The notes beneath the pieces were generated by a model, which was given only the letters and a program-made list of their open reading frames with translations, searched no databases and was not told where the DNA came from. A program made the translations under genes and the position numbers. Positions 9,203-21,908 of a DNA stretch of 55,351 nucleotides are shown here, in pieces. Numbering within the stretch: the first letter of the stretch is position 1; each line of letters begins with the position of its first letter. The stretch is from Actinobacteria bacterium HGW-Actinobacteria-6 (lineage in GTDB: Bacteria > Actinomycetota > Coriobacteriia > Anaerosomatales > Anaerosomataceae), in the NCBI GenBank assembly GCA_002841295.1, contig PHEU01000016.1, forward strand, positions 1-55,351, in the 5' to 3' direction.

Positions 9203-11320
9203 CTACGACGCCAAGACCGACATGCCCACCAGCCCCGCTATGGCCTTGTCGCACTCGTCTATCACGTATTGCGGGACGGTCTGATACTTCCGTGGGTTCA
9301 GTTGATAGATGTAGTCGTTCTCTATGTGAAACGCCTCGTTGATGAACTTGCGAACAACATCGGATTCGATGGCGTCGTCCTTGCCGTGAAACAGAATTCG
9401 ATAGAGGTGCAACTTCTCGTAGTTGCTGACAGTGTTCGAATACAGCTCCCGCAACTGCCCATCATCTGTCGCCATAGCCAGCACTGCATCGTAGTCGAAG
9501 CCAGCCACGCATGATGCGATTTCACCGGTGCCCACGCTGATTTGTTCCGGGGTCATCGGAGGGCCCCCATCCACCCTCTTGTCGATCGGGATTGCGCGCT
9601 TGTGAAAGATGTTGGAAATCAGCTGGTAGCCGTCGCCCTTCTCGCCCATCACCTCGAGCTTGCGCCTCAAGTAGACCAGCTTACTGAGTATGTGCTGCGC
9701 TTGCGCAATATTCGTGTCAGCGACCGCCAAGAACGACGAGATGTCCGCTTTCGTGATCTCGATCTCCTGTAGGACACCGCCCGAATTCTCCAGGAAGGCC
9801 GCATACGTAGGCGCGAAGCGGTCGGAGTGGTGAAACACCATGTCCACTATCGGCTCGAAGTCGTGCGTCAACAGCAACACTGTCTTCCCGCGCAGGCTCC
9901 TCGACTTGCGGAACAGCATGTCCACGATCGCGTACTTCTTGTTCTTGTCAAACGATGAGATAGGGTCATCCAGCACAACAAGATCAGGGTCTTCCTTGAG
10001 CACGTGGTACATGAAGAGAACCAGGGCAAAGGCGTTGCGCTCGCCGAAGCTCAAATGAGCCTTGGCGTCTTCTATAGGATCGTCGAGATCGTCGTGAACG
10101 AGCCTCAGCCTATGCTCGCCGCCCTCAACTGCCGTGATGTTCACCGAGTACTTGTAGCCGGCGTTCTTCAAGAAGGCGTTGATCTCTCCGCGGTTACTAT
10201 CGACGAGTCGCGCTATCAACGCCTCTTGCCTCCTGACGCAGCCTTGTAGCTCGCCAGCTCTTGCGCGAACTCCTTCAAGTGAGTGGTTCACCTTCTCGAC
10301 CATTGCCTCGGTGCTGTCTGACTTGAGATGAGGAAAGAGCTGGAGATCAATGACATACGAGTCGAGTCGTTCCATAATCTCGTCGGCGTCTTTGAGCGAA
10401 CTAAAGCCGATGTTCTGCGCTTGCTCGAACCTCCGATTCAGCCGGTCGATCTGTTCCCTGACCTGCGCCAAGTAGCTTGTCTCGTCGTCCGTGTATCCGT
10501 CGACGTTCGCAACGAATCCTTCGATGACATGCTTGGTGTCATCGGAGAAGTACTGGCTTAGTCGCTGGAACACCGCGACCATCTTGTTCAGACTCTCTAC
10601 GGCCTTGCTGTCATAGACCTCAGAAATCTTTCTGATGGTGTCCTTCTTCGCGGCAATTCCGCCAATGCAGTACGGGCAATTGTCCGAGATGTCGATGAAC
10701 GATTTGCCATCAAGTTGCCATTTCACCCATTTGAAGTTGTCCGACCCTTGGATGTACTGCTCGTACGCCTCCAGGCCTTCCGGTATGTTGTCGACCTTGT
10801 TGCCGCCCTTGAGTGCCTTCGCAATCGGACTAGATGCGTGTATGCCAGACTTCGTTGGTCGGCCAAAGCCACCGCTCAACTCTGTGAGATCCGCCCTAAA
10901 GGCAGCAATCTGTTCGTCCTCAGAGAGAAGCAGCTTGATCTCTTCTACAAGCGACTCAATCTGCCGGACGCCGTCTTCGTACGCTGCATCACGAATGAAG
11001 ACCTCGAAGCTTCCCTTGAGAAGCTCACCGGGCAAGAAGACGAACTCGTCCACATAGGACTCGTCGAAGATGCGTACGCTGACTGCCGAATCGGTGCCCC
11101 GAACTACCGGAGCTGCGTCAGGCTGCCCCATGTTCTTGAAAGCGGCGAGGGCCAGCAGGTTGTTGCGACCTTCTGTCCGGTCGGTAATCGAATACTCGAT
11201 CGCCTTCGCCAAGGTTGTCTTGCCGGTCCCGTTGATTGCGTACTTGATGTTGAGCGAGCCATCGACGATAGCGACACACCCCTCGTCGATGTTGTTGCAG
11301 TTCCGTACTTCGATGTCCAT
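9203..11320 (-). CDS. Rad50/RloC-like AAA ATPase with zinc hook, cassette-borne
   Basis: 705 aa. Walker A is AINGTGKT (28-35), the ABC signature LSFGERN (423-429), Walker B DLVVLDDP (447-454) and the switch histidine H486 (LLLTHD). Helical arms flank CPYC at 215-218, a CxxC at the place of a Rad50-type zinc hook. This architecture is that of AAA_13/RloC/PrrC-like proteins, several of which act in phage restriction through a C-terminal effector. The 200-residue C-terminus contains the conserved-looking RKFINEAFHIENDYIYQLNP but I cannot identify a nuclease triad. The start is 13 bases from attC2 with a G-run as ribosome site. Defence function is inferred. Confidence 0.8.
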   Translation of the reverse strand: MDIEVRNCNNIDEGCVAIVDGSLNIKYAINGTGKTTLAKAIEYSITDRTEGRNNLLALAAFKNMGQPDAAPVVRGTDSAVSVRIFDESYVDEFVFLPGELLKGSFEVFIRDAAYEDGVRQIESLVEEIKLLLSEDEQIAAFRADLTELSGGFGRPTKSGIHASSPIAKALKGGNKVDNIPEGLEAYEQYIQGSDNFKWVKWQLDGKSFIDISDNCPYCIGGIAAKKDTIRKISEVYDSKAVESLNKMVAVFQRLSQYFSDDTKHVIEGFVANVDGYTDDETSYLAQVREQIDRLNRRFEQAQNIGFSSLKDADEIMERLDSYVIDLQLFPHLKSDSTEAMVEKVNHSLEGVRARAGELQGCVRRQEALIARLVDSNRGEINAFLKNAGYKYSVNITAVEGGEHRLRLVHDDLDDPIEDAKAHLSFGERNAFALVLFMYHVLKEDPDLVVLDDPISSFDKNKKYAIVDMLFRKSRSLRGKTVLLLTHDFEPIVDMVFHHSDRFAPTYAAFLENSGGVLQEIEITKADISSFLAVADTNIAQAQHILSKLVYLRRKLEVMGEKGDGYQLISNIFHKRAIPIDKRVDGGPPMTPEQISVGTGEIASCVAGFDYDAVLAMATDDGQLRELYSNTVSNYEKLHLYRILFHGKDDAIESDVVRKFINEAFHIENDYIYQLNPRKYQTVPQYVIDECDKAIAGLVGMSVLAS

Positions 11321-11333
11321 GGCCCCCCCATGA

Positions 11334-11420
11334 ATCTAACGTATTTGCGCATCAGCTGCGGCTTCTGCGCCCTCAACAAGTCCAGCGCTCCTGGCCGTCA
11401 GCTGGATGCGCGGGTTAGGC
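11334..11420 (-). other. Integron attC site 2
   Basis: 87 bp bounded by ATCTAAC (11334-11340, perfect RYYYAAC) and GTTAGGC (11414-11420, perfect GTTRRRY). The left arm GCGCATCAGCTGCGG pairs with CCGTCAGCTGGATGCGC, leaving an unpaired T and G on the plus strand, as in canonical attC sites. The TAA stop of the zinc-ribbon gene (11415-11417) is inside the site. Confidence 0.93.
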
Positions 11421-11981
11421 CTCAGTTCCCGGCCGGGTCTGGTTGCGCAGGTTCTTCTGAATCTTGCGCTCAACCTGGCTTTCCACGTCATATTGCGACC
11501 CACGAAGAGGACCGACTTTGTGGCCGCAGTCGTCGCACTCGAACATGGTCGTGTCCGGGTCAGTCCAGCTGGTATGGGTTACCGGACGAATCTGGTAGTC
11601 GCAGGCGGGACAGAACACCGATAGATCGTAGATTGTGCCGTCGCGCCCATACTTCCAACGCCAAACGAGCCCAAGGAACCTATCCTCAACATACTTGTGT
11701 ACGACTGGTGTTGTGTCGCCTGCCGAAGTGGTCAGTGCGGCCCAAAGCAGCATCACGCCAACCACGACTACTGCCAGCACGCAAATGCCCATCAACAGGA
11801 GAATCCAGTTGGCGACAGTCGACGCTGCTGTGGTCCAAGACGCAGCGGATGCGAAGGTGCGTCCGACGGCCGGCCACAGTCCCTTGACCTGGGCCCACAC
11901 CGATAGGCCCACGGCGACTAGAAGCGCGGCAATCACGGCGCTCCACACGGGGTCCTTCCAGATTCGCCTGAGCAACTGCAT
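11415..11981 (-). CDS. Membrane protein with C-terminal zinc ribbon, cassette-borne
   Basis: 188 aa. Two transmembrane segments (about residues 12-30 and 57-83) are followed by a soluble domain with two CxxC pairs, C124/C127 (CPAC) and C149/C152 (CDDC), spaced as in a zinc ribbon. The C-terminus is charged and probably helical. No family is recognised. GGGGGCGAA before the ATG at 11981 serves as ribosome site. The gene starts 17 bases after attC3 and its stop lies within attC2, so it fills a single-gene cassette of about 0.67 kb. Confidence 0.75.
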   Translation of the reverse strand: MQLLRRIWKDPVWSAVIAALLVAVGLSVWAQVKGLWPAVGRTFASAASWTTAASTVANWILLLMGICVLAVVVVGVMLLWAALTTSAGDTTPVVHKYVEDRFLGLVWRWKYGRDGTIYDLSVFCPACDYQIRPVTHTSWTDPDTTMFECDDCGHKVGPLRGSQYDVESQVERKIQKNLRNQTRPGTEA

Positions 11982-11998
11982 TTCGCCCCCAATCGTAG

Positions 11999-12087
11999 GC
12001 CTAACGTATTAGCGCATCAGCTGCGCGCCATTAACTTCTCTGCCAAGCTGACGACTCCTGCGCGTCAGCTGTATGCGCGGGTTAGGT
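11999..12087 (-). other. Integron attC site 3
   Basis: 89 bp bounded by GCCTAAC (11999-12005) and GTTAGGT (12081-12087), both perfect cores. The arms GCGCAT/ATGCGC, CAGCTG/CAGCTG and CGCG/CGCG pair and leave two unpaired T residues on the plus strand. It starts 17 bases upstream of the zinc-ribbon gene and ends six bases before the stop codon of the next gene at 12094. Confidence 0.93.
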
Positions 12088-12093
12088 GCGTGA

Positions 12094-12570
12094 CTACCAC
12101 CAGCGCGTGGTCTTGCTCGTGAACTCGAAACGCATGATCGACGGGTCCTCACGGTACCGCTCCAACCAAGGCTTCGACATCGCCCAACTTGATGCCGACT
12201 TGCCCACGGGATGAATCTCAAGCAGGTGTTCCATCGATGTGATGAAGCAACTGATGGTGTCCGCAGCGTCAACCACGACAGCGAAGTACGGCAGACAGCC
12301 GAAGGCATCGCACGCGGCCCTCGCCTTGTCGAAGTTGTCTGAAGTGATGGAAACGTTCGTGCCCTCGGTCCCGACATTGCGAGAGCGGCTCTTGACCGAC
12401 ACGCCCATCACTTCGCCCGTATGCGGGTTCTTGGCGATGATGTCGATTCCGGTGTGGTCAACGTTGGCGCACTCGAAGCCATACTTCGAGAGCCAGTAGA
12501 GGACGAGTGACTCCGCGAAGTCACCCGTAATCTTGGAGTGCCGTGAGCTCTTACTGAGTTCCACTGTCAC
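12094..12570 (-). CDS. PD-(D/E)XK nuclease-like protein with altered motif, cassette-borne
   Basis: 158 aa. The fold pattern of Hjc/restriction-type nucleases is visible: E20 in a first helix (GDFAESLVLYWLSKYGF), D43 in GIDIIAK, then the strand VMGVSVKSR. The usual (D/E)xK is S58-V-K60 here, so one acidic ligand is missing. It may be a variant nuclease or a non-catalytic DNA-binding protein. The start is GTG at 12570, four bases from the attC4 core; AGGT from the GTTAGGT core appears to supply the ribosome site. The stop TAG is next to attC3. Confidence 0.65.
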   Translation of the reverse strand: MTVELSKSSRHSKITGDFAESLVLYWLSKYGFECANVDHTGIDIIAKNPHTGEVMGVSVKSRSRNVGTEGTNVSITSDNFDKARAACDAFGCLPYFAVVVDAADTISCFITSMEHLLEIHPVGKSASSWAMSKPWLERYREDPSIMRFEFTSKTTRWW

Positions 12571-12573
12571 TGC

Positions 12574-12672
12574 ACCTAACGTTCTTGGGCATCACCAGCG
12601 GCGCGCCCGGATTCCCTAGAGCCCGAGTCTACCGCACATAGCGCGCCGTCTGTGTGGATGCCCGGGTTAGAC
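12574..12672 (-). other. Integron attC site 4
   Basis: 99 bp bounded by ACCTAAC (12574-12580) and GTTAGAC (12666-12672), both perfect cores. The outer arms GGGCATC/GATGCCC pair; inner pairing CACCAG/CTGTGTG is imperfect and GGCGCGC/GCGCGCC pair again nearer the loop. It differs more from the other sites in its arms, so its cassette probably came from another source. Confidence 0.9.
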
Positions 12673-13352
12673 CGGGCCACCGCGGCAACCGCATAGTCCC
12701 ATGTGACCGCTCGAATGCCGTAGCGACCGGAGACGGGTTTGGCACGCAGCCAATACACACTCATGACGAAGGAGTACGCGGCAAGTGCCATGTACGCCCA
12801 CTGCCCGCCGAACTGAGGGGCGGACAGGGCGATGCGCATGATGAGGCCCATCGAGCCGCCGAGCACACAGCCCAACACCACGTAGAAGGAGGGATGGTCG
12901 TAGTCGAGCGGCTCGTGCACGAAGGCTCGAGATGCCGCGATATCGCTCGAGCACAAGCAGCCCCAAAACGACTCGCTGTCCTCGAGACCGTTCACGTATA
13001 CCGCTGGGCCATCGTCGATGCTCAACTTGATCTCCCGGATCACGCCGGCTGTGGTCCTCTTTGCCTGTGCGTGCCGTATGGAGTGCAGCTGGTACTCATG
13101 GCTGGAACGAAGATCGGTGCGGGTCAGCGTGGTGTGGCCGATATTCCAGGTCGTGCTGGCGAATTTGCGATTTCCGGCAGCCAGCCAGACGCGGGATGCG
13201 ACGAACAGTGCTGAGAGGCACAGGACTCCGGCAAGCAATTCGCGATAGTGCGCCGCGAACAGGTCGGCCGAGACGATGGCAAATGCGAGGACAGTGCTCA
13301 CCCCAAGGCGTTCGAAGGCCTTCTCGCGCCGCCGAAGCTCATACGAGGACAT
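12576..13352 (-). CDS. Membrane protein of unknown function, cassette-borne
   Basis: From ATG at 13352 the product is 258 aa. Two hydrophobic segments near the N-terminus (about 17-50) and two near residues 155-205 flank a soluble domain of about 100 residues. No family is recognised. The frame has no stop before the attC: it reads through the whole site, and the TAG used (12576-12578) is the complement of the CTA within the ACCTAAC core. About 31 C-terminal residues are therefore encoded by attC4. A start at 13475 would run through the array edge and is unlikely. No good ribosome site is seen for 13352, so the start is uncertain. Confidence 0.55.
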   Translation of the reverse strand: MSSYELRRREKAFERLGVSTVLAFAIVSADLFAAHYRELLAGVLCLSALFVASRVWLAAGNRKFASTTWNIGHTTLTRTDLRSSHEYQLHSIRHAQAKRTTAGVIREIKLSIDDGPAVYVNGLEDSESFWGCLCSSDIAASRAFVHEPLDYDHPSFYVVLGCVLGGSMGLIMRIALSAPQFGGQWAYMALAAYSFVMSVYWLRAKPVSGRYGIRAVTWDYAVAAVARSNPGIHTDGALCAVDSGSRESGRAAGDAQER

Positions 13353-13411
13353 CGTGAACGAACAATCGTCCTCACTGACCGCTTGCACCCGGCCCCCGTC
13401 CCTGCTGTTCG

Positions 13412-13480
13412 GTCTAACTAATCCCGGTACGCAGTCTGTGTATCGCCCAAAATCCCCCTCGGGCTTTTCCATCATATCCC
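13412..13480 (-). other. Upstream edge of the cassette array, possible attI or attC half-site
   Basis: GTCTAAC (13412-13418; GTTAGAC on the coding strand) is a perfect core at the 5' edge of the first cassette. No attC arms are seen to its right. It may be an attI-like site or a half attC left after loss of a cassette. The stretch 13353-13685 has no gene that I can support; it holds this core, a weak GCCC/GGGC hairpin at about 13450-13475, and the terminator at 13632-13656. Confidence 0.4.
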
Positions 13481-13685: not shown

Positions 13686-14279
13686 CTACTCGGCGGTGTC
13701 CCAGTTGACCTCGCCGTTGTCGAGGATGTACTTCGCACCGATGAGCTTGAGTTCTTTGCCCTTGAGCGCCTCTTCGATGATCGGGCTCTTCGCGAGAAGC
13801 TTGAGCATCCGGTCCACGTTCATGTCGGCGGCCGTCTCGGCGATCTGGGCGTCGCCCTTGGCACCGGACGCCTTCGCAGCGGTCACAGAGGGCTTGAGCT
13901 TCGCCAAGATCGATCCGATGCTTCCGGGCGCCTTGCCTCCAGCGACCGCTGCCTTCACGGCACCGCATCCCTGGTTGCCCATGACGACCACGAGCGGGCT
14001 GCCGAGATGCTCAACCGCGTACTCGACACTCCCGAGCGCAACCGGGTCGATAACGTTGCCGGCGACGCGAATCACAAAGATATCGCCCACGCCCTGGTCG
14101 AAGAGCAGCTCAGCCGGCACGCGAGAGTCGCTGCACGTCACGATGGCCGCAAACGGCGCCTGTCCCTTCGCAAGCTCCTTGAGGTTGGCGTCGCTGAAGT
14201 CCTTGACGGTGATCTCATCGGAGACGAACCGATCGTTGCAAGCGCAAGCCCCATCAACACGACAACGCCAACGTGCCAT
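13686..14279 (-). CDS. Beta-carbonic anhydrase-like protein, altered zinc site and likely frameshifted N-terminus
   Basis: 197 aa in this frame. CSDSRVP (C49, D51, R53) is the first zinc-ligand/catalytic-dyad motif of beta-class carbonic anhydrases. The second motif, normally HxxC, reads GNQGCGAV: N102 replaces the ligand histidine while C105 is kept. Activity (CO2 hydration) is therefore doubtful. The N-terminus in this frame (MARWRCRVDGACAC) is not family-like. In another frame, a TTG at 14296 with GGGGAGG eight bases upstream starts MKLRKAWHVGVVVLMGLALA, a good lipoprotein-type signal peptide; joining near 14238-14250 would place C-N-D-R-F after LAL(A). A one-base indel, or a sequencing error, would explain this. 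Confidence 0.8.
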   Translation of the reverse strand: MARWRCRVDGACACNDRFVSDEITVKDFSDANLKELAKGQAPFAAIVTCSDSRVPAELLFDQGVGDIFVIRVAGNVIDPVALGSVEYAVEHLGSPLVVVMGNQGCGAVKAAVAGGKAPGSIGSILAKLKPSVTAAKASGAKGDAQIAETAADMNVDRMLKLLAKSPIIEEALKGKELKLIGAKYILDNGEVNWDTAE

Positions 14280-14415
14280 GCTTTCCTAAGCTTCAACCCA
14301 CGAACCTCCCCATGATCGACATGATGCGTACCGAGGGAGATTCGCCTGCGTCAAGCCAACCCCTGCAGAGTTCGCTCGCAATGAACGAACCTCACGCATC
14401 CCCGAGAGACGGGCG

Positions 14416-15357
14416 CTACTCGCTTGAGATGCCAGTCATCGTGACGCTGACGATCACGTTGCCGCGCTTGTGCCCGGTGTCGACGTATGTGTGCGCATCG
14501 ACGATGTCTTCCAGCGCATAGGTGCGATCGATCACGGGCTTGATCGCACCCTTCTCGGCCAGCTCGCCGAGCAACACCAGGTCTTCGCGGCGAAGCTTCG
14601 GCGACCCATCATCGACCGAGACGCAGGTTCCGCCAGGGGCGAGCACGTGCCGGCACCGCCGAAGGGCGCTCGCGCTCTTGCGCTTTCCCACGGCGTCGAG
14701 AACGACGTCGTAGCGCTCCGGACGGTCCACGAAGTCCTCGCCGGTATAGTCGATCACTCGTGTAGCGCCAAGAGATGCCACGAGCGCCACGTTCGCGCTG
14801 CTGCACACACCCGTGACTTCGGCACCAAGGTGGCGAGCAAGCTGCACGGCCGATGTGCCCACCGCCCCGGATGCTCCAAAAACGAGGACTCGTTGTCCCG
14901 CTCGGACTCCGGCCTTGCGTAGGAAGTGCGCAGCGAGGAGTCCACCGTAGGGAATGGCTGCTGCCTCCTCGTCGGTGAGGTTGGCCGGTCGCGGGGCCAG
15001 AAGGCCGCCCTGGGGCCAGCACACGTACTGCGCGTACGTTCCGAAGCGGTGCCGGTTGAAGCCGAACACGCGGTCGCCCACCTTGAACGAGCGGACGTTG
15101 GCCCCGACCGAATCCACCACCCCTGAGAGCACCATGCCCAGCACCGGCTGCCTCGGCCCGTTCCACCCGAGCGCCAGCCTCCCTAGTATCCGGTAGACGG
15201 GAGACAGTCTGAGGCCACGGACATACGTATCGCTGGACGTGACGGCTGTGGCTCCGATGCGTACACGCACCTCGTTCTTCCGAGGAACCGGAGTTGCGAG
15301 TTCCTCAACCTGGAGTACCTCAGGCGGGCCGTAACGCGTGCAGATTGCGGCTTTCAC
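14416..15357 (-). CDS. NAD(P)-dependent MDR oxidoreductase (zinc-free)
   Basis: 313 aa, with the same architecture as the protein at 1480-2433: GroES-like N-terminus (VLGMVLSGVVDSVGANV), Rossmann motif FGASGAVGTSAVQLAR near residue 158, and VCSSANVALVASLGATRVID. Ligands for catalytic zinc are absent, which suggests a quinone or enone reductase. It overlaps the stop of the DUF4386 gene by four bases and is thus second in a two-gene operon controlled from the TetR operators at 16.1 kb. Confidence 0.87.
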   Translation of the reverse strand: MKAAICTRYGPPEVLQVEELATPVPRKNEVRVRIGATAVTSSDTYVRGLRLSPVYRILGRLALGWNGPRQPVLGMVLSGVVDSVGANVRSFKVGDRVFGFNRHRFGTYAQYVCWPQGGLLAPRPANLTDEEAAAIPYGGLLAAHFLRKAGVRAGQRVLVFGASGAVGTSAVQLARHLGAEVTGVCSSANVALVASLGATRVIDYTGEDFVDRPERYDVVLDAVGKRKSASALRRCRHVLAPGGTCVSVDDGSPKLRREDLVLLGELAEKGAIKPVIDRTYALEDIVDAHTYVDTGHKRGNVIVSVTMTGISSE

Positions 15358-16055
15358 TTTGAGACCTCAAGCGACGCGAGTGCCGACGGGCTGAACCCCT
15401 TCACAATCAGCCACCCCGCCAGAACCATCTCCTGCAGGAAGATCGGGAGATTCAAGACGATCTGGGGCGCTGTCATGGGACTGATGAGCTGGAACACGAC
15501 CAAGACGCTTGCCGAGAAGCCCATCGCCACTGCAACGATCCCCCACCCGGACAACCACCTAGGGATGAGCCGCGAGCGGAAGAACACGAGGTAGTACATC
15601 AGCCCCGCCGGGTAGAAGGCCAAGGTCCCTGCTATGCCCGCCCAACTCCGGACTGCCATCAGCAGCGCGCCTGAGGCATCAAGGTACGACGAGGCCGGAG
15701 CGCCGCCGTCCACGAGCCCTCGAGCCAATGTCACCATCGAGAGCACGGCGATCGCGCCAATGCTGTAGAGCACTCCCTCGATGATCCTCAAGCCGACGGA
15801 GCCGAGCGCCAGGCCCTCGCTGTGTCGCCTCAAGACCGGATAGAGCGCGATCGCGATGCAGGGACACGCGAAGAATCCGACGAGCCCGAAGAGCGCTCCC
15901 GCGGCCACCTGGTTCTGGTTTGCAGCGACCTTGGCAAGAATGTCGGCCCCTTTAAGGATTGGCTCTAGAAGCACCACCCTACCGATCAAGCCTGCAGTTG
16001 TAGCGACTATGAACAGCACTCCCACGACTATCGCTGTTCGCCTGTCCTTGCTCAT
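15354..16055 (-). CDS. DUF4386 family membrane protein
   Basis: 233 aa with about six membrane segments. Family traits are the N-terminal RTAIVVGVLFIVATTAGLIG, the central arrangement LGSVGLRIIEGVLYSIGAIA and SRLIPRWLSGWGI. DUF4386 proteins have no known function. The start has GGAAGGTG upstream. It is the first gene of an operon with an MDR oxidoreductase and divergent from a TetR gene with two identical-type operators between them, a layout typical of stress-inducible detoxification units. Confidence 0.85.
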   Translation of the reverse strand: MSKDRRTAIVVGVLFIVATTAGLIGRVVLLEPILKGADILAKVAANQNQVAAGALFGLVGFFACPCIAIALYPVLRRHSEGLALGSVGLRIIEGVLYSIGAIAVLSMVTLARGLVDGGAPASSYLDASGALLMAVRSWAGIAGTLAFYPAGLMYYLVFFRSRLIPRWLSGWGIVAVAMGFSASVLVVFQLISPMTAPQIVLNLPIFLQEMVLAGWLIVKGFSPSALASLEVSK

Positions 16056-16097
16056 GATCGAATCACCTTCCTCTTCAACTCCCGCATGCGATTGATA

Positions 16098-16114
16098 TAC
16101 TAACGGTGTTAGTA
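16098..16114. promoter_or_regulatory. TetR operator 1
   Basis: TACTAACGGTGTTAGTA is a 17-bp inverted repeat (TACTAAC/GTTAGTA). It lies 43 bases upstream of the DUF4386 start and 37 bp from operator 2. It is likely bound by the adjacent TetR protein. Confidence 0.7.
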
Positions 16115-16134
16115 TTATCCCCAGGGAGAGAATG

Positions 16135-16151
16135 TACTAACAGTGTTAGTA
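16135..16151. promoter_or_regulatory. TetR operator 2
   Basis: TACTAACAGTGTTAGTA differs from operator 1 only at the centre. It overlaps the putative GTG start of tetR (16143), so binding would block the regulator's own transcription. Confidence 0.7.
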
Positions 16152-16880
16152 TGTCAAGAAAGCCTATTCACCGAGGCACCACCGGCCACAGGAGGCATCA
16201 TCGTTCCCTCAAAGAACAGCAAGGAACCGCGGGAGACTCTCAACCGGGAGCGCGTCTTGCGCGCGGCCGTGAGTCTTGCCGACGAGTGCGGGATCGACTC
16301 GGTCACCATGCGCGAACTCGGCCGGCGGCTCGAGGTCAAAGCGGCGTCGCTGTACAACCACATAGCCAGCAGGGACGACCTTCTCGGCGGCATGGTCGAC
16401 CTCGCTCTGTCCGAGATCGCCGTGCCTACCGAGGGTGTCTTCTGGAAGGAGACGATGCGGCGGCGAGCGATCTCCGCGCGCGAGGTCTTTGCGCGTCACA
16501 GGTGGGCCGCGGGCCTGATCGACTCCCGTGATCGCACCGGCCCCGACAGCCTCGCGTACGTGGACCGCGTGCTGGGCGTACTCATTCAGGCCGGTTTCTC
16601 GCCGGCGGCTGCTGCAAACGCGTTCCTTGTGCTCGACAGCTACCTCTACGGCTTCGAGCGGCAGCGGCCCGATGTCTCGATCGAGGACGGGTTTGAACGC
16701 AGCGAGGCGGCCCGGAAGATCTTGGCGGCCATCCCGCACGGCGGGTACCAGAACGCCGCCCGCGTCGCGATGGAGTACGCCGAGCACCCCTTCGACCAGG
16801 AGGCGGCGTTCGAGTTCGGCCTCGGACTCATCCTTGACGGCCTCGAGCGCCAGCTTGGAGCGGACTCTACGCGACGGTGA
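16143..16880 (+). CDS. TetR/AcrR-family transcriptional regulator
   Basis: Up to 245 aa. The HTH is at about residues 38-80 (VLRAAVSLADECGIDSVTMR, LGRRLEVKAASLYNHIASRD), followed by a TetR_C ligand domain (LDSYLYGF, FEFGLGLILDGLERQL). The start is uncertain: GTG at 16143 lies inside operator 2 with only a distant GGGAGAG, while AGGAGG at 16191-16196 is followed by no standard start codon in this frame. Expected to repress itself and the divergent DUF4386-MDR operon. A decayed relative lies at 8658-9046. Confidence 0.88.
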   Translation: MLVCQESLFTEAPPATGGIIVPSKNSKEPRETLNRERVLRAAVSLADECGIDSVTMRELGRRLEVKAASLYNHIASRDDLLGGMVDLALSEIAVPTEGVFWKETMRRRAISAREVFARHRWAAGLIDSRDRTGPDSLAYVDRVLGVLIQAGFSPAAAANAFLVLDSYLYGFERQRPDVSIEDGFERSEAARKILAAIPHGGYQNAARVAMEYAEHPFDQEAAFEFGLGLILDGLERQLGADSTRR

Positions 16881-16962
16881 TCGCGATGTTGAGCGCGATC
16901 GCGTGGCCCATCGGCAGGCCCATCTGCACGAGCGGCGCGAGGATGACCAGGGCACCGTCAGA
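16867..16962 (-). pseudogene. Possible C-terminal fragment of a membrane protein
   Basis: On the minus strand a short frame ends at TAG (16867-16869) and reads DGALVILAPLVQMGLPMGHA then IALNIAITVA, a hydrophobic, helix-like tail. It has no start of its own and lies directly behind the terminator hairpin. It could be the stump of a deleted transporter gene or chance coding. Weak evidence. Confidence 0.25.
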
Positions 16963-16964
16963 CA

Positions 16965-17002
16965 ATAAGGCCCCGCCGCGAATGCTCGCAGCGGGGCCTT
17001 AT
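16965..17002. terminator. Bidirectional terminator between tetR and the glutamate synthase operon
   Basis: A perfect 12-bp stem ATAAGGCCCCGC/GCGGGGCCTTAT with a 14-base loop. It lies 19 bases after the stop of the last glutamate synthase gene (17022, minus strand) and about 85 bases after the tetR stop, so it can serve both. Confidence 0.8.
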
Positions 17003-17021
17003 CAGCAGATTGAGGTCTTGC

Positions 17022-17843
17022 CTACATCGGCGCGTACATCTTCCCGTACGGCCTGTGGCTGAACGGCTTGAGCTTGATGAACGGCTCGGACAGCACCTCG
17101 GCAAGGTCCATGCCCTGGCACTCGCAGTAATCCGCGAGGATCGGCTTGAGCTCGGCCATATCGGCCTCGTCGGCCTCGGTCACGCCAACTTCTTTGCCGC
17201 ACTGCCACGACTCGACGGTACCGCGGATGTAGATGACGCCGCCGTGCATTCCGGCGCCCACGAACGAGCCCACCAGGGGCTGCTCGGCAAACTGCGTGTT
17301 CATTCCCAGCAGCACGAGCATTCCGCCGGCCATGTACTCGCCGAAGAAGTCGCGGGCCTTGCCGCCGCACACCATGATCGGGACGAGGTTCTCGTACGCC
17401 TTCATGTGGATGCCAACGCGGTAGCCCACGTCACCCTTCACGTATACCTTGCCGCCGCGCATGCCGTAGCCGAGAACGTCTCCGGCGTCACCATGGATGA
17501 TGACCTTGCCGGCGTTCATGGTGTTGCCCACGCCATCCTGCGCGGCGCCGAAAACCTCAACGGTCGGGCCGTCCATGAACATCGTGAGGTCGTTTCCGGC
17601 GGTACCGTGAACGTTGATCTTGACGTCTTTCGCCTTCACGCCTGTGCCGATGTAGCGCTGGCCGTTCACGTTCTCAAGCACGATGTGCTTCGCGCCGTCG
17701 GCGATCTGTGAACGAATCGCCTCGTTGAGCTGCTTGTAGTAGACACCGGCAGAATCGATGGTGACCTTATCTCCGTCGCGCGTGACCTTCGGCGCGACTT
17801 TGATGTATCCCTCAGTTACTCCGGGAGCCATTTCTCTTGGCAT
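17022..17843 (-). CDS. Glutamate synthase GXGXG-domain subunit (GltB domain 3, stand-alone)
   Basis: 273 aa. The repeated GxxGxxxGGxxxVxGD pattern (GTAGNDL, GDAGDVLGYGMRGGKVYVKG, GYRVGIHM) is the right-handed beta-helix found at the C-terminus of large glutamate synthases. Here it is a separate protein, as in archaeal-type glutamate synthases and MgsB of N-methylglutamate synthase. The domain is structural and helps to couple the ammonia tunnel between the other two subunits. It starts 11 bases after the FMN subunit gene. A C-terminal CECQ segment is of unknown use. Confidence 0.88.
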   Translation of the reverse strand: MPREMAPGVTEGYIKVAPKVTRDGDKVTIDSAGVYYKQLNEAIRSQIADGAKHIVLENVNGQRYIGTGVKAKDVKINVHGTAGNDLTMFMDGPTVEVFGAAQDGVGNTMNAGKVIIHGDAGDVLGYGMRGGKVYVKGDVGYRVGIHMKAYENLVPIMVCGGKARDFFGEYMAGGMLVLLGMNTQFAEQPLVGSFVGAGMHGGVIYIRGTVESWQCGKEVGVTEADEADMAELKPILADYCECQGMDLAEVLSEPFIKLKPFSHRPYGKMYAPM

Positions 17844-17853
17844 TGTGCCTCCC

Positions 17854-19365
17854 CTACATCCCCGCCGGCTTGACGCCGAGGACCTTGTTCATCTGCTCGT
17901 CCAGGCCGATGGAGCGCAAGCGCTCGCGAGATCCGCGCAGCGACTCGATGGCGTTCACACCAAGCGCGCCCAGGATCTCCTGGAGCTCATGGCTCCACGC
18001 GTGCACCAGGTTCGTGAGCTGCTCGGCACCCCACTCGGGGTCGATGCGGCGCGTGAGCTCCGGCTTCTGCGTGGTGATGCCCCAACTGCAGGACCCCGTG
18101 TGGCAGCTCTGGCAGAGGTGGCAGCCAAGCGCCATAAGCGACGCCGAGCCGATCGCCACAGCGTCGGCACCAAGCGCGATGGCCTTGGCAACGTCTGCCG
18201 AGGAGCGAATCGAGCCGGCAGCGATGACCGACGCCCAGTTGCGGATACCTTCGTCGCGCAGGCGCTGGTCAACCGCGGCAATGGCGATCTCGATCGGGAT
18301 ACCGATGTGGTCGCGGATGACCTGCGGAGCCGCACCGGTGCCGCCCTTGAAGCCGTCCAGGTACACGTAGTCGGCACCAGCACGAACGATGCCCGAGGCG
18401 ATCGCTGCCACGTTGTGCACCGCGGCGATCTTCACGCCGACCGGCTTGTAGCCGCTGGCTTCCTTGAGCGCGTAGATGAGCTGGCGCAGGTCTTCGATGG
18501 AGTAGATGTCGTGATGCGGCGCCGGGCTGATCGCGTCCGTGCCCTGCGGGATCATGCGCGTGCTGGAAACTTCCTTGTTGATCTTCTCGCCGGGAAGGTG
18601 CCCGCCGATGCCAGGCTTGGCGCCCTGGCCGATCTTGATCTCGATCGCAGCACCGCGGCTGAGGTAATCCGGGCTCACACCAAAGCGACCGGAGGCCACC
18701 TGGACGATGACGTTGTCCTGGTACGGGAACAGGTCTGCGTGCAGACCACCCTCGCCGGTGTTCATGAACGTGCCGAGGCGCTGTGCAGCCATCGCAAGTG
18801 ACTTGTGGACGTTCAGGGAGACCGAGCCGTAGCTCATCGGCGAGAAGAGGATCGGCGTGTCGAGCATGAGGTTGTTCTTCATGCCCTCGCCCTCGGCCAA
18901 GCGGAAGCCGCCGTTGCCATCAGGCTCCACTCCCACGCTGTCCGGCTTGTGGCCGATGAACGTGCGGAGTTCCATCGGCTCGCGGAGCGGGTCGATGGAC
19001 GGGTTGGTGACCTGGCATGCATCGAGGACGAGGTGGTCGAAGATGCGCGTGTACGGCAGCGGGTTGCCCATGGAAGTCAGGAGCACGCCGCCAGTCTCGG
19101 CCTGACGCCATACGGCCTTGCGCGCCGCGGGCGACCAGTTGTCGTTGTCGCGGTACGCAAGCTGGTTCTTCTCGATGGAGATGCAGTGCGCAGGGCAGTA
19201 CGTCACGCAGCGGTGGCAGGCGCGGCACTTGGAGTCATCCGGGATCGGACGCTCGTTGAAGTTGTAGACGCCCCAGCCGCACTGCTGAACGCAGCGGCCG
19301 CACTTGTGACACTTGTCGTAATCGATCTTGACCTTGAACTCAGGCTGGATGAATGAGGTAGGCAT
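17854..19365 (-). CDS. Ferredoxin-type FMN glutamate synthase subunit
   Basis: 503 aa. Two N-terminal 4Fe-4S motifs (CHKCGRCVQQC from residue 19 and CRACHRCVTYCP) precede an FMN-binding TIM barrel: MSYGSVSLNVHKSLAMAAQR, GQGAKPGIGGHLPG and DGFKGGTGAAP are the substrate and FMN signatures. The 3Fe-4S-type cysteines follow in CHLCQSCHTGSC. The enzyme adds ammonia to 2-oxoglutarate and reduces the imine to glutamate. The fused ferredoxin domain and lack of an NADPH subunit suggest ferredoxin-like electron input. It starts one base before the stop of the GATase gene region. An N-methylglutamate synthase role is an alternative. Confidence 0.9.
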   Translation of the reverse strand: MPTSFIQPEFKVKIDYDKCHKCGRCVQQCGWGVYNFNERPIPDDSKCRACHRCVTYCPAHCISIEKNQLAYRDNDNWSPAARKAVWRQAETGGVLLTSMGNPLPYTRIFDHLVLDACQVTNPSIDPLREPMELRTFIGHKPDSVGVEPDGNGGFRLAEGEGMKNNLMLDTPILFSPMSYGSVSLNVHKSLAMAAQRLGTFMNTGEGGLHADLFPYQDNVIVQVASGRFGVSPDYLSRGAAIEIKIGQGAKPGIGGHLPGEKINKEVSSTRMIPQGTDAISPAPHHDIYSIEDLRQLIYALKEASGYKPVGVKIAAVHNVAAIASGIVRAGADYVYLDGFKGGTGAAPQVIRDHIGIPIEIAIAAVDQRLRDEGIRNWASVIAAGSIRSSADVAKAIALGADAVAIGSASLMALGCHLCQSCHTGSCSWGITTQKPELTRRIDPEWGAEQLTNLVHAWSHELQEILGALGVNAIESLRGSRERLRSIGLDEQMNKVLGVKPAGM

Positions 19366-19366
19366 C

Positions 19367-20572
19367 TTAAGCGGTCACCTCCACGGTGTCGCAGGAGCGT
19401 TCGGTGCCGGTGACAGCACACGAGATCTCGGACGGATCCAGGTGCAAGTCGCCATGGATCGGCCAATCCATGCCCTTCACGCGAGCAATCGTCGGCTCGC
19501 CTGCCTTGGGCATCCAAACCGAGTCCGGCTCGGCGATAACGGCGCGAATCGCGCTTTCCTCGGAAGCGACCATGAGGATGGAGCCCTTGCGAGCCGCAAC
19601 CAGCGGACGCAGCTTGATGCGGTCGTTCAGTGCGACCATGCCGCCGTTGAAGCCGAGAACGATCGCGAACGGCCCGTTGAGCATGCCGGGGCCGTAGACC
19701 GAGCGCAGCGAACGCATGACGGCCTGCTCGGCCTCGGGCATGCGGTCGATCTCATCCCACAGCGGGCTTGCGAGCGCCTTGCACGCGAGCTCCATCGGGA
19801 GCTTGTGGCGGCGGAGCAGCAAGTCGAACAGGTACGCGGCGACCTCGGTGTCGGTGCCAAGCGTGCACTTGTAGCCGAACTGCTCCAGGTAGCGGCTGTT
19901 GATGCCGTAGCTGGAGATCTCGCCGTTGTGCACGATGGTCCAGTCGAGCAGCGCGAACGGGTGCGCGCCACCCCACCAGCCGGGAGTGTTCGTGGGGAAC
20001 CGGTTGTGGCCGGTCCAGGTGTTGCCTTCGTACTCTTCCAATCGGAAGTAGTGGCCGATCTCCTCGGGATAGCCAACACCCTTGAAGACGCCCATGTTCT
20101 TGCCCGAGGAAGCCACGAACGCGCCGTCGACCGACGAGTTGATGTTCATGACGGCTTTGACCACGTAGTCCTCGGCGGAAAGCTCTGACTCTTCCAGCTT
20201 GCTCGGATACGGGTTGAGGAAGTAGCGCCACAGAAGCGGCGCGTCGGTGATGCCCTTGACCGGACGGGTCGGCATCGGCTCGGCCAGATCGACCAGGAAG
20301 TACTGGTCAAAGAGGGCTTCGACCTCTTCTTTGGCCTGGATGTCGTGGTACATCATGTGGAACGCGAAGTGATCCGGGAACTCGGGGTAGATGCCGTAGC
20401 CGGCAAATCCGCCGCCGAGGCCGTTGCCGCGGTCGTGCTGGACGGCCATCGCAAGGATGGCGTCTTCGCCGCTCATGAGCTTTCCGCTCTCATCGCAGAT
20501 GCCCATGAGGCCACAGCCACCGTGGATCTTGTACGACGCCTCTTCGGCGTAGCGTGGTCGCTCCGTCGTCAT
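19367..20572 (-). CDS. Class II glutamine amidotransferase subunit of glutamate synthase
   Basis: 401 aa from ATG at 20572. HGGCGLMG around C20 is the likely catalytic cysteine. Downstream are TGHNRFPTNT, HNGEISSYGINSRYLE and GTDTEVAAYLFD, all class II (Ntn) amidotransferase motifs. It hydrolyses glutamine to give ammonia to the FMN subunit. GAGGGAGT upstream supports this start over a longer frame; the upstream hdrBC-like gene stops one base away. It matches MgsA/archaeal GltB1-type stand-alone domains. Confidence 0.9.
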   Translation of the reverse strand: MTTERPRYAEEASYKIHGGCGLMGICDESGKLMSGEDAILAMAVQHDRGNGLGGGFAGYGIYPEFPDHFAFHMMYHDIQAKEEVEALFDQYFLVDLAEPMPTRPVKGITDAPLLWRYFLNPYPSKLEESELSAEDYVVKAVMNINSSVDGAFVASSGKNMGVFKGVGYPEEIGHYFRLEEYEGNTWTGHNRFPTNTPGWWGGAHPFALLDWTIVHNGEISSYGINSRYLEQFGYKCTLGTDTEVAAYLFDLLLRRHKLPMELACKALASPLWDEIDRMPEAEQAVMRSLRSVYGPGMLNGPFAIVLGFNGGMVALNDRIKLRPLVAARKGSILMVASEESAIRAVIAEPDSVWMPKAGEPTIARVKGMDWPIHGDLHLDPSEISCAVTGTERSCDTVEVTA

Positions 20573-20573
20573 G

Positions 20574-21908
20574 CTATTCAACTCCCTCATCGGTATCAGC
20601 AAGCAGGCGGGATAGCGCCTCGCCGCCACTAGCCGGCAGCGGTGATAGTCCAAGCTTCTTGCGGGCTGATTCTCTCGGCGCACCGAGCATGCCCGTCTTG
20701 CGGAAGGTGTCATACGCCGCCGAGACCTGATCGGGACCGGTGCCGACCTCGAGCGAGAGCTCCTTGAGCTTGCGGAAGACCTCAGCCATGCCGATGCGGC
20801 TGGGGCAGAGCTCCTGGCACGTGTAGCACTCCAGGCACTTCCAGACCTGCGGATCGGCGAGGACCTCGTCGATCTCGCCTTTGAGCAGGCGCTCGATGAG
20901 CTCGGTCGGCTGGTACTTGGTGTCGACCTTGCACACCGGGCAGTCGTCCTTGCACGCCTGGCAGTTCACGCACTTGGTGAGGAGCGACACGTCAAAGAGC
21001 GACGCAAGTCTGGCCTTGTCGGCCTGGCGGCTCTCCCACTTCTCCAGGAACGGCTCTACCGAGACGCGGTGCATATCAAGGCCGATCTCGGCGGGCTCAT
21101 GGCCCATACCGAGCGCAATGAGCTCCGAGAGGTAGAGCACCGGCACGTTGACGTCTTCCTTCGCACGCTGAAGCGCGGCCTGGTTGAGGTCGAACTGCTG
21201 GAAGCAGCTGGGGCACACGACCACAAGCGCGTCGACGTCGTTGCCCATGAGGTCCATGAGCTTGCGACGAGCGAATGCGAGCGAACCCTCGCGCTCGCCC
21301 ACGCGGTCAAGCGCGTTGCCGCAGCACTGCATCTTGGTGGTGTAATCCACGACCGTTGCGCCGAGACCCGCGATGAGCGCCTCGACCTTGGTCGGGTTGA
21401 GCGGGTCGTCCCAGCGCACAGCCGGGCTCGGGCGAAGCAGATGGCAGCCGTAGTGCACAGCGATGCGCATGCCCCACAGCGGCTTCGTGATCTTGGCTGC
21501 GATAACACCCGCACCCATGTCCTCGGAGAGCCACTCGGCCAAGTGTGTGACCTGCAGCGTGCCATCAAAGTGGAGGTCCTGCGCTGCGAGCTTCTCGTTG
21601 ATGGCGTCTTTCTGACGCCAGTCCTTCGTGAGGTGGCTCTGCGCCTCTTTGAAGGTGGAGTAGCAGCCATTGCACGGCGTCACAACGCCAAGACCGGCCT
21701 TCTCAACGAGCGCGAGGTTCCTCGCGGCAGTCGAGTAAAACGCATTCTCGTCGTTGGCCTTCACGAGCACGCCCTCGGGGCAGCAGGTGTGGCCTTCTAG
21801 CTCATGCACGGTCGCGCCCAGGTCATCGAAGACAAGCCGCGTGGCCTTCTCGATGAACGGGAACCGCGCAGGGATCGTGCATCCCCAGAAAACTGCGAAT
21901 TCCTTCAT
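20574..21908 (-). CDS. HdrB-HdrC fusion, heterodisulfide reductase-like electron-transfer protein
   Basis: 444 aa. The HdrB-like part has two CCG domains: C10/C42-C43/C79/C82 and C155/CCG195-197/C232/C235. These bind the unusual [4Fe-4S] clusters of the family. The HdrC-like C-terminus (about 310-390) has two ferredoxin motifs, CVNCQACKDDCP and CLECYTCQELCP. The order is the reverse of GlpC-like proteins. The gene leads the glutamate synthase operon, with its own TATAAT promoter. I infer that it passes electrons between an unknown redox partner and the ferredoxin domain of the synthase; a real heterodisulfide substrate is not implied. Confidence 0.87.
   Translation of the reverse strand: MKEFAVFWGCTIPARFPFIEKATRLVFDDLGATVHELEGHTCCPEGVLVKANDENAFYSTAARNLALVEKAGLGVVTPCNGCYSTFKEAQSHLTKDWRQKDAINEKLAAQDLHFDGTLQVTHLAEWLSEDMGAGVIAAKITKPLWGMRIAVHYGCHLLRPSPAVRWDDPLNPTKVEALIAGLGATVVDYTTKMQCCGNALDRVGEREGSLAFARRKLMDLMGNDVDALVVVCPSCFQQFDLNQAALQRAKEDVNVPVLYLSELIALGMGHEPAEIGLDMHRVSVEPFLEKWESRQADKARLASLFDVSLLTKCVNCQACKDDCPVCKVDTKYQPTELIERLLKGEIDEVLADPQVWKCLECYTCQELCPSRIGMAEVFRKLKELSLEVGTGPDQVSAAYDTFRKTGMLGAPRESARKKLGLSPLPASGGEALSRLLADTDEGVE

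Follow-up and report, generated by a model that had tools for sequence, protein, structure and literature searches.

A beta-carbonic anhydrase gene with asparagine at a zinc-ligand position and a displaced signal peptide: a probable case of recent inactivation in an actinobacterium

The locus and its zinc site

The window analysed here, a stretch of 55,351 nucleotides (contig PHEU01000016.1) from Actinobacteria bacterium HGW-Actinobacteria-6, contains on its minus strand an open frame for a beta-carbonic anhydrase domain (13686..14279), which begins with ATG and runs for 197 codons without a stop. This ORF matches PF00484 (Pro_CA) significantly along the whole profile (E 1.1e-39, profile positions 2-156 of 156), placing it in the beta class, and its G+C content by codon position (0.65, 0.44, 0.80) is gene-like. 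Residues 15-197 are homologous to a protein from the same genus, and residues 1-14 are an out-of-frame reading of an old signal-peptide region. An earlier note had treated 13686-14296 as one gene. That span, at 611 bp, does not divide into whole codons, and its TTG at 14296 belongs to the remnant of the signal peptide, which is out of frame with the domain carrying residue 102; the span therefore crosses a frameshift.

From 14416 onwards, the neighbours recognised by Pfam are an ADH-like dehydrogenase (14416-15357), a DUF4386 protein (15354-16055), a TetR protein (16143-16880) and parts of glutamate synthase (17022-19365), all of them near full-length. In the glutamate synthase region (17022-20713) the parts are encoded by separate genes: one specifies a GXGXG-domain protein (17022-17843), another a protein that combines ferredoxin and synthase domains (17854-19365), and an ORF of 448 aa comes next on the same strand. 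In the four other genomes of the genus nothing matches most of the dehydrogenase at more than 45% identity, so the region around it may be specific to this genome. Beside the carbonic anhydrase, 9203-13475 encodes an AAA_13-type ATPase of 705 aa (PF13166) along with proteins of 188 and 299 aa, neither of which has a Pfam match at E 0.001; this is possibly a variable region.

In beta-carbonic anhydrases the zinc is held by one His and two Cys (PMC5746736). Both Cys ligands and the Asp/Arg dyad are intact in the window ORF, the first Cys and the dyad as C49-S-D51-S-R53 (14121..14135, minus strand; pattern CxDxR) and the second Cys as C105 (13965..13967, minus strand). The second motif reads G-N102-Q-G-C105, in which codon 102 (13974..13976, that is, 13976..13974 as read on the minus strand) is AAC, one base different from a His codon, so that the Cys2His site has lost its His to Asn. 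Both the Asn codon and the conservation of C49, D51 and R53 had been pointed out in the earlier note, correctly. The ORF has a single His, H91, which is no new ligand, because it is present in the intact relative too and is aligned to a Val in the structure 2a5v; we reject a newly acquired zinc ligand, the only His being ancestral.

An active enzyme with altered coordination, binding zinc through Cys2Asn(Asp) or using another metal, would be compatible with the retention of C49, C105, D51 and R53, and Asn can be a weak metal binder. Nevertheless, we consider such an enzyme very unlikely, given that His is invariant at this position in all other distinct sequences compared, that no His has been gained, and that the export signal has been lost too. 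With the His gone, no substitute for it and the first helix missing, the activity of the protein should, as far as sequence can tell, be low or absent.

Aligning the ORF with beta-carbonic anhydrases of related genomes, a check that had been proposed for it, sets N102 apart. We gathered 99 loci from the genome itself, from 41 genomes (its own and 40 relatives) and from a scan of genome contigs (best 80 of 157 relatives). The residue aligned at 102 is Asn in two loci, L001 and L003, which are copies of the window's own gene, and His in the other 97. With identical proteins taken out, 96 aligned rows remain, the window's included, and His occupies the position in all 95 others (94 plus the same-genus L004, 84% identical). 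The peptide patterns of the contig scan included VVMGNQGC, hence a bias towards Asn; despite this, Asn was found in none of the best 80 of 157 relatives, the window gene aside. Thirty-seven columns are conserved to at least 90%; in 35 of these the window has the common residue, and it departs at residues 102 and 128. Because the relative also departs at residue 128, N102 is the only window-specific break among the 37 most conserved columns.

We also scanned 396 genomes of the phylum, including the window's own, for exact occurrences of the motif. The N form occurs at six places in six genomes, and the sole beta-carbonic anhydrase among them is the window's own; the other five places have no match to a beta-carbonic anhydrase profile built from the 96-row alignment, window included. 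The His form occurs at 55 places in 50 of the 396 genomes, and all eight loci fetched from these 55 match the profile. With the motif reversed as a control, our reading of the tables gives one place for the N form and five for the His form. The scan, being exact, misses divergent members of the family, such as the second beta-carbonic anhydrase of the same genome (GHEGCAAV), which does not fit the motif. We reject a wider family of N-type enzymes, there being one N-type carbonic anhydrase among the exact-motif matches in the 396 genomes. Within the genus, one of the four other genomes has the gene, with His, and three give no match (one of these, G002, is 86% complete). The recurrence of the same dead state across several lineages, as would mark a maintained pseudoenzyme, is seen neither in these four genomes nor in the 396 of the phylum. 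A search of the literature by titles and abstract openings returned no natural His-to-Asn beta-carbonic anhydrase, which says little, as most subscription journals lie outside its coverage. Judging from the alignments, Asn at residue 102 is not ordinary variation.

A displaced signal peptide and a deletion junction

The closest homologue, L004 from genome G004 of the same genus, is a protein of 246 aa that starts MMKLRKAWYLGVVAVLGLALATSGCSG and carries a lipoprotein-like signal peptide with a lipobox. It is identical over 3,540 bp to L020 from HGW-Actinobacteria-1, and the deletion described below is judged against this one relative sequence. Signal peptides and lipoboxes were called by eye, following the lipobox rule by which lipoprotein signal peptides are recognised. 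The window gene has no in-frame signal peptide with a lipobox Cys such as that of L004. It has instead the remnant of one at 14138..14296 (minus strand), which starts with the TTG at 14296, begins LKLRKAWHVGVVVLMGLALAT and agrees with the relative in 15 of 21 residues (16 if TTG is taken as Met). This old frame continues into the enzyme domain, where it is out of phase with the coding frame, and ends at a stop (14140..14138) with no lipobox Cys. A ribosome-binding-like GGGGAGG lies upstream of the old start (14305..14311, minus strand, position worked out by hand), just as GGGAGG lies upstream of the start in the relative; AGGA stands directly upstream of the internal ATG of the window ORF.

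The two frames meet at a single 11-bp element, AACGATCGGTT (14227..14237, minus strand), which has sequence resembling the signal region to one side of it and sequence resembling the enzyme to the other. The element is present twice in L020, as AACCAGCGGTT and AACGAGCGGTT, which differ by one base and are spaced 127 bp from each other, one of them within the signal region and the other where the enzyme domain starts. Local alignments between the window and L020 show 69% identity over 167 bp on the signal side and 83% over 552 bp on the enzyme side. The single copy in the window is the product that would be expected from a 127-bp deletion between short direct repeats, the exact length being estimated from one relative. 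Because 127 is of the form 3n+1 (127 mod 3 = 1), a deletion of this size shifts the frame. Along with the signal peptide and the lipobox Cys, the linker and the helix preceding NDRF are missing or unreadable in the window; at the end of this helix GN is found in 93 of the 95 other rows and GY in one, L096 is cut by a contig end, and the window has CN. A DNA search of the genome with the displaced N-terminal segment (L020:2812-3020) returned no match, but as it missed the window's own 69% similar remnant too, this negative carries no information. The earlier note did not include this second lesion, the frameshifting deletion.

Lipoprotein-like signal peptides also begin Firmicutes homologues such as L025 and L033, and a rough pattern search picks out 19 of the 95 rows as having lipobox-like N-termini, a figure that depends on automatic start choice. 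As both L004 and these Firmicutes homologues have signal peptides, the lipoprotein form is probably ancestral.

It is hardly credible that programmed frameshifting fuses the signal and enzyme frames, such that the exported protein is still made. The frames do share about 100 bp (14237 to 14138), and constraint on the signal frame lasted until recently, but the lipobox Cys of the relative is absent after the signal stretch, a repeat-mediated deletion explains the junction, and the relative has a single continuous frame.

Both lesions are read from the assembly sequence. If a sequencing or assembly error had produced one or both of them, the gene in the organism would be that of an ordinary lipoprotein beta-carbonic anhydrase. 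The genome is in 69 contigs (the relative is in about 30), N102 is a one-base difference, and both lesions are limited to this genome among those compared, all of which would fit with error. However, two unrelated errors would be needed within one gene, and the deletion ends in imperfect 11-bp repeats that we judge too short and too different for easy collapse by an assembler. The Pfam-matched neighbours from 14416 to 19365 are unbroken, which argues against generally poor sequence here. Although one error together with one real lesion is possible, two independent errors in the same gene are unlikely, and overall we think error an improbable source of the pattern, while giving it some weight.

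Constraint and the fate of the gene

Over the 183 codons of the enzyme domain compared between the window and L020, dN is 0.103 and dS 0.57, a dN/dS of about 0.18. The signal remnant, read in its old frame, has 12.5 synonymous and 6.5 nonsynonymous differences, distributed 5/1/13 over codon positions 1/2/3; in the new frame the differences are 1 synonymous and 14 nonsynonymous. Both parts were constrained in their old frames, and the damage must therefore be recent. For most of the period after the two lineages split, the signal and enzyme parts thus evolved as components of a single functional protein, and the new N-terminus shows no sign of a past as coding sequence. Constraint is weaker in the last third of the domain (dN 0.163, dS 0.30), in a pairwise comparison that does not assign the change to a branch. 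Polarised amino-acid changes number 11 on the window branch and 11 on that of the relative, with eight ambiguous. This lack of excess change on the window branch fits a late loss but gives no positive sign of decay.

Our favoured interpretation, which we hold to be likely, is that the window gene is a pseudogene, one that used to specify an exported, lipid-anchored beta-class carbonic anhydrase and has recently been inactivated. It has an out-of-frame deletion and has lost an invariant ligand, and the gene is intact in the relative. The ancestor would have been a lipoprotein of ~246 aa with a Cys2His zinc site, active in CO2 hydration beyond the cytoplasmic membrane; this export and activity, like the order of the two lesions, we infer. 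In the lineage of the window, some 127 bp were most likely lost by recombination or slippage between the near-identical 11-bp repeats. Such a loss would have eliminated the lipobox and the linker together with most of the first helix, and put the signal peptide and the enzyme domain in different frames. In the zinc site, His has also been replaced by Asn. Any protein still translated from the internal ATG would be cytosolic and truncated, its zinc site incomplete and its activity low or nil, and the gene most likely does nothing useful.

Several points count against this interpretation, the even split of polarised changes among them. The frame is still open, with AGGA before the internal ATG, so a product may still be made. 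The genome's other beta-carbonic anhydrase, at G000:C48, has C-D-R and HxxC intact, which speaks for the interpretation, and may cover the cytosolic need, but it is only distantly related to the window ORF (32% identity) and need not replace the exported enzyme. This second protein (L002, G000:C48:39588-39998) has GHEGCAAV where GHxxCGAV is usual, with its zinc ligands intact. A further candidate for a damaged carbonic anhydrase, suggested by a TAG within the L006 match, was dropped, the TAG being the ordinary end of the gene.

Gene order does not date the loss, since the position of the gene differs between L020 and the window genome. In L020 the carbonic anhydrase gene is two genes from an ORF that we read by eye as glutamine synthetase. 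The best match of this ORF in the window genome is on another contig (C44), at 89% identity, and the DNA similarity ends just upstream.

Could the damaged protein have been kept for another role? A non-catalytic cytosolic protein might, for example, bind bicarbonate or pair with the intact beta-carbonic anhydrase, and the open frame, the gene-like codon-position G+C, the AGGA before the ATG and the remaining catalytic residues are all in keeping with this. There is also a precedent in the carboxysomal carbonic anhydrase CsoSCA, in which a beta-carbonic anhydrase domain that has lost its zinc site is apparently regulatory (PMC11086599). However, the new N-terminus is unconstrained in its new frame, the helix preceding the domain is lost, the state is found in no other genome compared, and the known dead domain came from duplication inside a larger protein (PMC11086599), unlike the window gene. 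We regard a repurposed pseudoenzyme as unlikely. A one-step conversion, in which a repeat-mediated out-of-frame deletion and an internal restart made a cytosolic protein that lost its zinc ligand and took on a new non-catalytic role, seems to us more unlikely still.

The earlier note had left open three readings of N102: a recent mutation, a different metal arrangement and a pseudoenzyme. The first fits best, because Asn is unique among the compared sequences, the nearest relative has His, and the rest of the domain is constrained. The second receives no support, and a kept pseudoenzyme is weakened by the second lesion, which cost the gene its signal peptide, lipobox and first helix, and because no other N-type beta-carbonic anhydrase turned up among the sequences and genomes compared.

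The main value of the case is one of caution. Annotation would probably present an ORF that scores so strongly as a functional carbonic anhydrase despite two lesions, one of which is visible only when the upstream DNA is compared with that of a relative, and this gene is no basis for ascribing an exported carbonic anhydrase to the genome. If confirmed, it would be a small example of gene loss caught early, with the open frame still looking healthy.

Comparison with known relatives

The window gene most likely belongs to a known family, as an ordinary member that has recently been inactivated, and is not a new kind of enzyme. The lipoprotein beta-carbonic anhydrase of L004/L020 is closest, with an enzyme domain 84% identical and the upstream DNA 69% identical over the 167 bp aligned, but, unlike the window gene, it retains the ligand His, its signal peptide is in frame and has a lipobox, and its first helix is complete. 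Next come beta-carbonic anhydrases of Firmicutes (Desulfosporosinus, Pelotomaculum, Sporomusa and others), which make up most of L021-L048, a set in which L024 is labelled Slackia and L046 Deltaproteobacteria. They are about 48-60% identical to the window protein, and among nine such homologues inspected, L022, L023, L025, L029 and L033 have an N-terminal segment as in L004. All members of the Firmicutes group differ from the window in having His in the motif. The best solved relatives of the ORF by sequence are PDB 2a5v and 1ym3 (E about 3e-33), which we take to be the Rv3588c-type beta-carbonic anhydrase of Mycobacterium tuberculosis; 2a5v, unlike the window, has the His, in VLGHDSCGAV. The C-terminal domain of CsoSCA resembles the window protein in being a beta-carbonic anhydrase domain that has lost its zinc site (PMC11086599). 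In CsoSCA this is a conserved loss in a duplicated protein with an active partner domain, whereas in the window it is a single recent loss in a single-domain gene.
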